The position numbers were made by a program, and so were the translations under genes. The notes beneath the pieces were generated by a model, which had not been told where the DNA came from, did not search any database, and saw only the letters and a list, made by a program, of their open reading frames with translations. A stretch of DNA of 33,802 bases from an uncultured bacterium. Lineage in GTDB: Bacteria; Myxococcota_A; Polyangia; Polyangiales; Houyiibacteriaceae. Below, piece by piece: positions 5,616 through 33,732 of the stretch (within the stretch, counting starts at the first letter, position 1; each line of letters begins with the position of its first letter). The stretch spans positions 1-33,802 of the forward strand of contig CALJYC010000044.1 in assembly GCA_937984275.1 (NCBI GenBank). The letters run 5' to 3'.

Positions 5616-6625
5616 GTCCCAACTCACCAAAGAAAGAATACACCCGCAAAGACTTCGCTTCCGATCAGGAAGTTCGCTGGTGCCCCGGCTGCGGCGACTA
5701 CGCGATTCTCGCCGCCGTGCAGCGAACCCTGCCGAGCCTTGGATCGACCCCGGAGAACACCGTGTTCATTTCCGGCATCGGCTGCTCGAGCCGGTTCCCC
5801 TACTACATGAACACCTACGGGTTTCACACGATCCACGGCCGCGCGCCCGCGATCGCGACAGGGCTCAAGCTCGCCAACCCCAAGCTCGACGTCTGGGTGA
5901 TCACCGGTGACGGCGACGGGCTGAGCATTGGCGGCAACCATCTGCTTCACGTGTTGCGCCGCAATATCGACCTACAGATCATGCTGTTCAACAATCAGAT
6001 CTATGGCCTGACGAAGGGGCAGTACTCGCCGACGTCGCAGGTCGGTAAGGTCACCCCTTCGAGCCCGCTCGGGTCGATCGACCAACCAGTGGTGCCGACG
6101 CGTTTCGCGTTGGGCGCGCGCGCGACTTTCGTGGCTCGAGCTTTCGACACGTCGAAAAAGCTCCCGGAGGCGTTGAGCGCGGCCCGCGAGCACAAAGGCG
6201 CATCGTTCATCGAGATCCTCCAGAACTGCCCCGTCTTCAACGACGGAGTCTTCGAGCTGATCACGGATCGAAAGACTGGCCCGGCCTACCAACTTTGGCT
6301 CGAGCACGGCCAACCGATGAAATTCGGGGCCAACGGCGAGAAAGGCCTCCGATTGAAGCCGGAAACGCTCAGCCTCGAGGTCGTGACGATCGGCGAGGAC
6401 GGCGTCAGCGAGCAGGACATCGTCGTTCACGACGAGACCAACGCCTCGCTTGCGTGGATGCTCACGGACCTACCCGAGGTCGTCGCGCTCGGCGTGCTCT
6501 ATCGTCAGCCAGGCCCCGTCTACAACGAAAGCGTTGCAACCCAGCGCGACCTCGCAGAGGACCGATTCGGCGAGCCGGACCTACATGCCCTTCTTCGGCA
6601 AGGGCACACCTGGACCGTTTCCTGA
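5612..6625 (+). CDS. korB: 2-oxoacid:acceptor oxidoreductase, beta subunit (TPP-binding)
   Basis: RWCPGCGDYAIL, ISGIGCSSRFPYYMNTYGFHTIHGRAPAIATGLK, TGDGDGLSIGGNHLLHVLRRN; ATGA overlap with korA. Confidence 0.94.
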   Translation: MSPNSPKKEYTRKDFASDQEVRWCPGCGDYAILAAVQRTLPSLGSTPENTVFISGIGCSSRFPYYMNTYGFHTIHGRAPAIATGLKLANPKLDVWVITGDGDGLSIGGNHLLHVLRRNIDLQIMLFNNQIYGLTKGQYSPTSQVGKVTPSSPLGSIDQPVVPTRFALGARATFVARAFDTSKKLPEALSAAREHKGASFIEILQNCPVFNDGVFELITDRKTGPAYQLWLEHGQPMKFGANGEKGLRLKPETLSLEVVTIGEDGVSEQDIVVHDETNASLAWMLTDLPEVVALGVLYRQPGPVYNESVATQRDLAEDRFGEPDLHALLRQGHTWTVS

Positions 6626-7327
6626 CGCCGCGCCGTTGGACACGGGCAACGTCAACACGATGCGAAGGCCGTGCGGGTCGCGCACGCTTGCCGTGACGTA
6701 GCCGCCGGAGCGCGACGCTAAATCTGCAAGCCTGGTCAGTTCGAACCCGACTTTCGGCCGCCGATCGAGCTTGGTGAATGGGGTGAACAAGGCGCAAAGC
6801 TCCTTCTCGCTCGGACTCGCGCCGTCGTCTTCAATTGTCAACGCAGCGGCGGAGCCGACGACGCGCGTGGCAACACGAAGCGATGTGGCGGCCTTGGTCT
6901 GTGCCATGAATTGCGCCACTCCAGAGAGCGCCTCCCTAGCCATCCAAACGTCCAGCTGGACAGTCGAGTCTTCGGCGCTCAGATCGAGCTCGGCGGGTGT
7001 TCCGAGCTCAGAAACCACGTTGGTCACGAGATCGTTGAGAGAAAGAGCCCGTGCGCGAAACGACGCTTCTCCTGCGAGGACGGCAAGTTGACGCATGAGC
7101 TCGCGCCCATCTTCCGCCGCATCGCGAACTTCGCCCATGTACTTCTCGAGCGCCTCGACGTTTGAAGCGCTCTTCTGTGCCAGATGCGCATTCCCGATGA
7201 TCACCCCGAGGATGTTGTTGACTTCATGAACGACACCCGCCGCGAGGTCTCTCGCCGCCTGCATACCCTCCGGATGCAAGATGCCCTTCCCCGGAACCTG
7301 CGATTCGTCGGCGGCCATCGTCGTCAA
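6581..7327 (-). CDS. Histidine kinase-like protein with intact H-box and degenerate ATPase motifs
   Basis: DLAAGVVHEVNNILGVIIGNAHLAQ is an H-box/DHp motif; the C-terminal half looks like HATPase_c (IEDDGASPSEKELCALFTPFTKLDRRPKVGFELTRLADL) but lacks a clean N-box and GxGLGL. Confidence 0.7.
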   Translation of the reverse strand: MTTMAADESQVPGKGILHPEGMQAARDLAAGVVHEVNNILGVIIGNAHLAQKSASNVEALEKYMGEVRDAAEDGRELMRQLAVLAGEASFRARALSLNDLVTNVVSELGTPAELDLSAEDSTVQLDVWMAREALSGVAQFMAQTKAATSLRVATRVVGSAAALTIEDDGASPSEKELCALFTPFTKLDRRPKVGFELTRLADLASRSGGYVTASVRDPHGLRIVLTLPVSNGAASGNGPGVPLPKKGM

Positions 7328-7698
7328 ACCTCGAGCAGCTTCTTCACGGCGCGGATGACCCGTGGTGCTTGAATCGGCTTTTCAATGTACGCGTTCGCGC
7401 CCAGCGCCAGCGCCCGGTCCCGATCGTTCGGCGCGCTTTCCGTGGTGATGATCACGATGGGGGTCTTCTCGTGCCGCGGGTCAGCCCGAACGTGCCGTAC
7501 GAGCTTCAGACCGTCCATCACGGGCATGTTGACATCAGTCAACACGAGATCGAATCGCTGTGTGGCCAGTGCACGGATGCCGGCCAGGCCGTTCTCGGCC
7601 ACGACGACTTCCATTCCAGGGATTCGTTCGAGAGACTCTGCCAACATGTTGCGCATCGTCTTGGAATCTTCGACTACGAGGCAGCGGTACCGACGCAT
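7324..7698 (-). CDS. CheY-like single-domain response regulator
   Basis: CLVVEDSKTMRNML, DLVLTDVNMPVMDGLKLVRHVR, IVIITTES, YIEKPI. Confidence 0.94.
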   Translation of the reverse strand: MRRYRCLVVEDSKTMRNMLAESLERIPGMEVVVAENGLAGIRALATQRFDLVLTDVNMPVMDGLKLVRHVRADPRHEKTPIVIITTESAPNDRDRALALGANAYIEKPIQAPRVIRAVKKLLEV

Positions 7699-28486: not shown

Positions 28487-28569
28487 TAGCCGAGGTCGGA
28501 CTCGAACCGACACATCCAAAGGATACCGGATTTTGAATCCGGCGCGTCTGCCAATTCCGCCACTCGGCC
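28487..28569 (-). tRNA. tRNA-Leu, anticodon CAA
   Basis: Reverse strand GGCCGAGTGGCGGAATTGGCAGACGCGCCGGATTCAAAATCCGGTATCC...GTCGGTTCGAGTCCGACCTCGGCTA folds as type II tRNA; anticodon loop CGGATTCAAAATCCG; no encoded CCA. Confidence 0.95.
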
Positions 28570-31534: not shown

Positions 31535-33394
31535 ATGTTGTCTCGCCTTTGGTACTTGGTTCTAGCTTTGGCCGTCGGGGGAGCGCTTGCAGGCGCGTTC
31601 TTGAACAAGTCGGCCGCCAGTCGGGAAGCCGAATTCCAGCTCGGAGAGCAGCTACGCCGCGACCGAATCGAAGCGGAGTTATGGATGCGACTCGACGCAC
31701 GGCTTCGTTTGGACGCCTTGGCATCCGTCGCAGTCGAGCCGGAGGTTCGGCAGACTCTGCGTAGCTCGAGCGGTCGCGCCGGGACGCCCCCAACAGCCAC
31801 GCGCAAGCGGCTGAGCCAGAAGCTCGGCATGCTCAACGCCAAGCTCGAAGAGGGCAAGGGAGACATGGTCTTCGCCGTAGACACGGAGGGCGAGGTCGTG
31901 GCCACGCTCGACAAGAACGCGATGGGATCGGAGCGGCTCGACAAGATGCCGCTCGTCCGTGACGCGCTCCGAGGTTTCATGCGAGACGACGTGTGGGTCT
32001 ACAACGGTGAGGTCTTCAGAATGGCCGCGCGCCCCGTCTTCGACGGCGGCCGCTATGTGGGCGCGATCGTGCACGGCATGGCGATTGGGGACGACCTCGC
32101 GAGGCGTCTCGGGAGCAAGCTTCCGAACGCGTCGGTCGTGTTCTTCTTCCGCGATCGATTGATTGGGGCTCATGTGGGCGGAGCCAAAGCGCCAAGCAGC
32201 GCCGAGCTCAAGAACGGACTCTCGCCCGCGCTTGCCAGCATGGAGAACGGCGAAGGCTCGATCGAGATCGGCGAGCGCACTCGCGTGATCGCGTCGCCCG
32301 TTCGCGGCGAGGCTGCGCATGCCGAGGTGGGCTACGTCATTGGCCGCAAGGGAAGCACCGTCGGCCTCGGCGGGCTGTTCGCGAATACCTTCAAGGAAGA
32401 CGTTGCGTCGCTGCCGTGGCTAGTCGTCATCGGAATTCCCCTCTTGCTCCTGCTCCTCGGCTTGTTCCTGCTCTACCTGGAGCACGACAAGGCAGTCGGG
32501 ATTCTTCGTAAGGCCAGCGAAAGCCTCGCGAAGAGCGAGCTGAGTAGTCTTCCCGAGGGAGAGCTGCGACGCCACTACCGCAAGATCGCCGAGAACTTCA
32601 ATGGCGCGCTTCGTGCGGGCGTCGGATTCAAAGAAGACAGGGCCGAACGCGCCTCGGTCGACCTCGACCAGATCCTCAACACTACGCGCGATAGCGCTGA
32701 CTCGGGTTACTTCGGTTTCTCCGACGAGGCGCCCACGGCCAAGCAGGTCTCACTCGACGATCCCGAGCCGGCGCGAAAACCGGCGGCGAGTTCGCAGCAT
32801 ATGACGCCCATTAAGCCGGATCCAATCGGCAAGAGCGTGGCAGCCAAAACAGATCACGGTGCGGTGACTGCACCGCCGCAGGGAACACCGACGGCGCGCC
32901 CCGATGGCGCACCAACCGCCCGCCCGCAGCGCTCGCCTTCGTCGCGGCCGCAGCGCTCCCCATCATCTTGGCCAGCGCGCGCGCCGTCTTCGCGTCACCC
33001 GGTGACCGCAACTGTTCGGCACGGCGAGGATCATTTCAACACTGCGCCGGACGACCCACCGACTCGTCCGAACGCGATGCTTGACGACTACGATGGATTT
33101 GATCATCCCGAAGAGAACACCCAGATCAAGCACGTGCCACAGGAGCTACTCGAAGCTTCCGCACCGGCGGTGCAAGGCGAGGAGACGCACTTCCGTGAGG
33201 TGTTCGACCGGTTCGTCGCGACGCAAGAAGAATGTGGTGCTCCGGTGAACGGGCTCACCTTCGACAAGTTTGTACGCAAGCTTCATGCCGCCCGCGAGCA
33301 GGTCATGAAACGCCACGATGCGGCCTCCGTACGCTTCACCGTGTACGTAAAAGACGGCCGCGCAGCGCTCAAAGCCAGTCCAGTCAAACAGTGA
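31535..33394 (+). CDS. Membrane protein with Cache-like periplasmic sensor region, HAMP-like stretch, low-complexity linker and an MXAN_5187-type C-terminal domain
   Basis: Two TM segments (LWYLVLALAVGGALAGAFL; WLVVIGIPLLLLLLGLFLLYL) flank a domain with VFAVDTEGEVVATLDK...VRDALRGFM; linker TARPDGAPTARPQRSPSSRPQRSPSSWPARAPSS; tail FVATQEECGAPVNGLTFDKFVRKLHAAREQVMKRHDAASVRFTVYVKDGRAALKASPVK. Confidence 0.75.
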   Translation: MLSRLWYLVLALAVGGALAGAFLNKSAASREAEFQLGEQLRRDRIEAELWMRLDARLRLDALASVAVEPEVRQTLRSSSGRAGTPPTATRKRLSQKLGMLNAKLEEGKGDMVFAVDTEGEVVATLDKNAMGSERLDKMPLVRDALRGFMRDDVWVYNGEVFRMAARPVFDGGRYVGAIVHGMAIGDDLARRLGSKLPNASVVFFFRDRLIGAHVGGAKAPSSAELKNGLSPALASMENGEGSIEIGERTRVIASPVRGEAAHAEVGYVIGRKGSTVGLGGLFANTFKEDVASLPWLVVIGIPLLLLLLGLFLLYLEHDKAVGILRKASESLAKSELSSLPEGELRRHYRKIAENFNGALRAGVGFKEDRAERASVDLDQILNTTRDSADSGYFGFSDEAPTAKQVSLDDPEPARKPAASSQHMTPIKPDPIGKSVAAKTDHGAVTAPPQGTPTARPDGAPTARPQRSPSSRPQRSPSSWPARAPSSRHPVTATVRHGEDHFNTAPDDPPTRPNAMLDDYDGFDHPEENTQIKHVPQELLEASAPAVQGEETHFREVFDRFVATQEECGAPVNGLTFDKFVRKLHAAREQVMKRHDAASVRFTVYVKDGRAALKASPVKQ

Positions 33395-33395
33395 G

Positions 33396-33424
33396 TTGAC
33401 CGCGGGGAACCGCGGCTCTAGTTT
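33396..33424 (+). promoter_or_regulatory. Candidate sigma70-type promoter TTGACC-N17-TAGTTT
   Basis: TTGACC 33396-33401, 17-bp spacer, TAGTTT 33419-33424, just upstream of the ncRNA candidate. Confidence 0.6.
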
Positions 33425-33430
33425 AATGAA

Positions 33431-33630
33431 TGGTCTCTCTGTTGTTGCAGGTGAGGAAGGAGTAGTGAATCCCTGACTAGGTCGATTCGGGAGCTTTCAA
33501 CGTACGTGGTGTGCGGACCCGGCTAGCGTCATCGGGGGGCCTAAAGCGTGCGACACCGGTTCCCACCTACTAGTAAATTGTAGGGGTTCGACTCAATATT
33601 AGATCCCACGGCAACAACGGTCCGGGCTAT
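33431..33630 (+). ncRNA. Candidate 6S-like RNA (ssrS)
   Basis: No good ORF; closing stem CTGTTGTTGC / GCAACAACGG, internal unpaired region, second stem GAATCCCT / AGGGGTTC, further pairing ACTAG../..CTAGT and GGGAG/TTCCC giving a rod-like hairpin of about 190 nt; promoter upstream, terminator downstream. Confidence 0.6.
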
Positions 33631-33637
33631 TTGGGGG

Positions 33638-33665
33638 GCCGACTCGAAAGAGTCGGCTCTTCGTT
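33638..33665 (+). terminator. Rho-independent-like terminator
   Basis: GCCGACTC-GAAA-GAGTCGGC followed by TCTTCGTT; perfect 8-bp stem with a GNRA-type loop. Confidence 0.8.
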
Positions 33666-33705
33666 TATGGGGACTGTCTCCTTTTCAGGATCGTTAACCC
33701 TTCGG

Positions 33706-33726
33706 AAAAGGGGACTGTCCCCTTTT
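33706..33726. repeat. Palindrome AAAAGGGGAC-T-GTCCCCTTTT with a partial neighbour copy at 33669-33685
   Basis: 10-1-10 perfect inverted repeat read directly; core and flanking TTAACCCTTC resemble the palindrome at 2940-2988. Confidence 0.9.
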
Positions 33727-33732
33727 TCTTCT

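Follow-up and report, generated by a model that had tools for sequence, protein, structure and literature searches.

Introduction

6S RNA is a small bacterial RNA that restrains RNA polymerase by imitating an open promoter. In gammaproteobacteria its gene is commonly linked to ygfA or zapA, a linkage that does not define the family. In E. coli and related bacteria, opening of the downstream helix allows formation of a hairpin in the 3′ strand of the central bubble (3′-CB hairpin), which drives release (PMC8876501). Ms1 has a 6S-like fold and another partner (PMC4191392, PMC9130861). A search of the open literature returned no dedicated study of 6S RNA in myxobacteria.

The stretch of DNA analysed here (the window) comprises 33,802 nucleotides from an uncultured Myxococcales bacterium (contig CALJYC010000044.1 of assembly GCA_937984275.1). 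A sequence-only reading had proposed that an unannotated 6S RNA gene lies near its end. Our analysis indicates that positions 33433–33627 on the plus strand are almost certainly the single ssrS gene of this bacterium, with its own housekeeping-type promoter and intrinsic terminator, and that by homology its RNA would act through promoter mimicry and pRNA-driven release. It is a genuine if somewhat divergent 6S RNA, adds a member to a family already known, and carries no sign of a new mechanism.

Results and Discussion

Identification and distribution of the 6S RNA gene

An Rfam search at gathering thresholds found nothing at the locus. When the search was run with an E-value threshold, the 6S family RF00013 matched 33433–33627 (+) over model positions 1–187 of 187 (39.8 bits, E 1.8e-6). 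The 6S-model comparison proposed at the outset returned the family at full length, though 6.6 bits short of its gathering score of 46.4. The gathering threshold is a curation cut-off and no biological defining feature; as the locus scores below it, it is overlooked by threshold-based annotation. The RNA measures 195 nt against 187 model positions. The sole match in the window at gathering level is a tRNA-Leu (CAA) at 28487–28569 on the minus strand.

A hold-out covariance model, R1, was derived from alignment A3, which contains other genera only and leaves out the genus of the window. R1 scores 138.6 bits (E about 2e-35) at 33432–33626. The window RNA is homologous to RNAs of other genera and families that score above the RF00013 cut-off. 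In the whole genome (3.49 Mb in 397 contigs, 88% complete) this locus is the only RF00013 match, and neither RF00013 nor R1 finds a second 6S locus in the 88%-complete assembly. The sequence-only reading had named two findings that would speak against it; a better 6S gene elsewhere was not encountered in this assembly, and no other Rfam family gave a credible match at the locus. Weak Rfam matches to sraA, mir-5681, Sphinx_1 and SorX near the end of the window lie far under their cut-offs and were discarded as chance.

By nucleotide search, the same locus is present in 29 of 96 other genomes, including 15 of the 18 from the same genus; one of these 15, G010, matches the upstream part only, because its contig stops there. 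RF00013 detects 6S RNA in 67 of 97 relatives (40 above the cut-off) and, in a phylum-wide set of 284 genomes, in 144, and the lineage model R1 recovers eleven order-level genomes missed by RF00013 under stricter filters. Standard Rfam thresholds overlook 6S RNA in much of the lineage, and absence calls there are therefore unreliable. The window locus fills an annotation gap, and the lineage alignment is usable for a better 6S model.

Two 6S loci each were seen in three genomes. In G305 and G071 the loci are unlike in score and lie on separate contigs, so that they are either true paralogues or contamination. In G043 they have equal scores and opposite orientations on one contig, possibly an inverted repeat of the assembly.

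Conserved fold and covariation

Folding this one RNA by itself offers little proof (–69.6 kcal/mol, z = –2.1; 6 of 200 shuffled sequences do equally well), and comparison decides. Two sequence-only alignments were used, A1 covering mostly the genus and family and A2 the whole order. The 46-pair structure is formed in 95.7% of cells in A1 and 90.9% in A2, with compensatory changes at 20 and 29 of the 46 pairs, respectively, flanking the central bubble on both sides. None of 500 shuffles reaches the observed values, a control in which relatedness is not removed by the shuffling; in a slid-register control that keeps relatedness, pairing falls to 38–52%. The covariation that the sequence-only reading had asked for is thus found in relatives.

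The rod-like 6S fold comprises a closing stem, an internal loop, helix P2, a large central bubble and an apical arm. The closing stem pairs CTGTTGTTGC (33439–33448) with GCAACAACGG (33611–33620) and shows compensatory changes. Helix P2, the downstream duplex, pairs GAATCCCT (33467–33474), the predicted pRNA template, with AGGGGTTC (33582–33589), which is partly shared with the 3′-CB hairpin. Both stems lie exactly where they had been proposed. The RF00013 alignment identifies P2 as the homologue of the downstream duplex in E. coli; P2 is paired in 99.6% of cells in A1 and 95.8% in A2. Distal to the central bubble, GGGAGC (33489–33494) pairs with GTTCCC (33559–33564), followed by the apical arm CGTACGT ... 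GCGTGCG (33501–33552, helices 5–7), which includes the GGACCCGG/CCGGGG hairpin. Helices 5–7 are paired in 95–100% of cells, with at most 12 compensatory cells at one pair. A helix ACUAG/CUAGU, which would collapse the central bubble in the minimum-energy fold of the RNA, is not retained in other genera and was dropped.

The central bubble and the 3′-CB hairpin

The sequence-only reading had placed the central bubble at 33449–33466 opposite 33590–33609. An internal loop does exist there, but it is not the central bubble of 6S RNA: in the RF00013 alignment it sits between the closing stem and P2. Nor is it wholly open, since part of it is paired with covariation, GTGaGG (33451–33456) with CCCAC (33605–33609), a short helix kept in most sequences with some compensatory changes. 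This loop assignment is the only error in the earlier 6S interpretation. The alignment places the true central bubble beyond P2, with 33475–33488 as its 5′ side, where the pRNA start is predicted near the P2 border, and ACCTACTAGTAAATTGT (33565–33581) as its 3′ side.

Overlapping the latter region, CCUAC(N9)GUAGG (33566–33584) can form a 3′-CB hairpin. Its GUAGG overlaps the 3′ strand of P2 and its partner CCUAC belongs to the 3′ strand of the central bubble, and hence the hairpin and P2 are mutually exclusive. RNAalifold on the order-wide alignment dropped P2 in favour of the hairpin, which prompted an explicit test of both helices. Both are conserved; two pairs specific to the hairpin carry 14 compensatory cells. 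Folding of the free RNA gives P2 a probability of 0.94, against 0.06 for the hairpin; constrained folding, with the 5′ template strand made unavailable as it would be by pRNA, raises the hairpin to 0.99. With the template blocked, the hairpin reaches 0.8–1.0 in most relatives, several of which are high already when free. In the aligned register it is not predicted in 6 of 30 order-level sequences (L029, L047, L048, L049, L052 and L069). Evidence for the release hairpin described for gammaproteobacteria, including covariation, is thus available in Myxococcota too.

These elements bear on the possibility that the RNA descends from 6S RNA and has lost or changed its function, for example by binding core RNA polymerase without sigma as Ms1 does. 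The window RNA departs from the Rfam consensus and scores below the cut-off, and Ms1 offers a precedent of a 6S-like fold with a different partner (PMC4191392, PMC9130861). We nevertheless regard a changed function as improbable. P2, the 3′-CB hairpin and the two sides of the central bubble are all retained and strongly conserved, no Ms1-type Rfam match appears up to E = 10, and no second 6S candidate was found in the 88%-complete genome. A functional 6S RNA remains the preferred reading.

Promoter, terminator and genomic context

The proposed promoter TTGACC-N17-TAGTTT is present at 33396–33424. Its –35 element TTGACC (33396–33401) is in the same place in 14 of 14 same-genus loci, and TTGAC(C) precedes 6S in most other genera; the –10 element TAGTTT (33419–33424; TACTTT or TACCTT in congeners), after a 17-nt spacer, is conserved in position and stands about 8 nt ahead of the conserved GTCC start of the RNA. 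The proposed GAAA-loop terminator at 33638–33657 is an exact perfect inverted repeat, GCCGACTC-GAAA-GAGTCGGC, followed by TCTTCGTTT; a terminator-like hairpin of varying sequence occurs at the equivalent place in most relatives. The promoter agrees with the consensus at no more than 8 of 12 positions, and a pattern scan for promoters and terminators listed neither site, so conservation across relatives was used instead. There, TTGAC(C) is separated by about 17 nt from a –10 element of the form TA...T; the GTCC...GGAC RNA starts about 8 nt further on and is usually followed by a terminator-like hairpin. These conserved positions suggest that 6S would be transcribed as an independent unit.

The terminator stem-loop recurs in identical form on another contig, at its first bases (G000:C155:1-20); this could be the sequence across the assembly break, or a terminator used more than once. 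At the contig end, the palindrome GGGGACTGTCCCC (33704–33729, flanks AAAAGG/CCTTTT) is a dispersed repeat: the genome contains 19 exact copies, whereas the reversed control has 0. The repeat may be the reason why the assembly breaks here.

The upstream gene (31535–33394, +) encodes an MXAN_5187-family protein (NF041620, 243 bits), and the 6S promoter starts one base after its stop codon. Homologues adjoin 6S in about ten other genera (loci L019, L021, L023–L026, L031, L045, L046, L048 and L069), generally with the 3′ end toward 6S and sometimes co-directional, sometimes convergent. No mention of MXAN_5187 was found in the open literature searched. A Pfam scan of ten adjacent proteins in five relatives found neither ygfA nor zapA. 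It is possible, as a tentative generalization, that the 6S RNAs of the order make up a divergent clade that RF00013 often fails to detect, with a gammaproteobacteria-like P2/3′-CB switch and a persistent position 3′ of an MXAN_5187-family gene that would hint at shared regulation.

The same surroundings speak to a second alternative, that the element is a cis-acting leader, riboswitch or other regulator of a downstream gene, with no free-standing RNA. The contig stops about 140 nt beyond the terminator, leaving any such gene out of view. In G015 (L033), a close relative, the gene that follows (6211–7671) lies on the minus strand, opposite 6S, so the RNA there is no leader. Taken with the promoter and terminator that bracket the RNA and with its 6S homology, this makes a leader very improbable. 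That the fold arose by chance, or that the element is the 3′ UTR of the MXAN_5187-family gene, is barely conceivable: the promoter one base past the stop codon and a single-sequence z-score of just –2.1 would fit it, and it is contradicted by the covariation, the full-length 6S model match, the hold-out score and other genera in which the RNA is convergent to the MXAN_5187-family gene or away from it. The conserved positions of promoter and terminator, joined to the model match and the covariation, uphold the earlier identification as 6S RNA.

Proposed mechanism

By homology, the RNA would mimic an open promoter and occupy the sigma70-type holoenzyme as growth slows. When nutrients return, the polymerase would copy a short pRNA off the 5′ strand, from about 33474–33478 back through GAAUCCCU; the predicted pRNA would contain AGGGAUUC and start opposite 33474–33478. 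The template role is a prediction from the conserved template strand and the modelled refolding. Synthesis of the pRNA would open helix P2 and liberate GUAGGGG, of which the freed GUAGG could pair with CCUAC to give the 3′-CB hairpin, and the polymerase would presumably be released.

Comparison with known 6S RNAs

The window RNA shares with RF00013 a full-length alignment, the closing stem, P2, the central bubble, the apical arm, its own promoter and terminator, and the motif CCCACCU, conserved on the 3′ side of the bubble. It differs in its lineage-specific sequence, which holds the score at 39.8 bits against 46.4, and in its neighbour, an MXAN_5187-family gene in place of ygfA or zapA in gammaproteobacteria.

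Ms1 of actinobacteria resembles it in the 6S-like rod fold (PMC4191392). Ms1 binds core RNA polymerase, belongs to another phylum and gives no match to the window RNA.

As in gammaproteobacterial 6S RNA, the 3′-CB hairpin draws on the 3′ strand of P2 and can form only after P2 opens, although for some relatives folding predicts the hairpin even before the RNA is blocked. It has 5 bp, whereas that of E. coli has 9 bp (PMC8876501). In this shortness it resembles the hairpin of B. subtilis 6S-1, of about 5 bp (PMC8876501). The latter is already formed in the free RNA, while in the window RNA P2 is predicted to dominate (0.94 versus 0.06).
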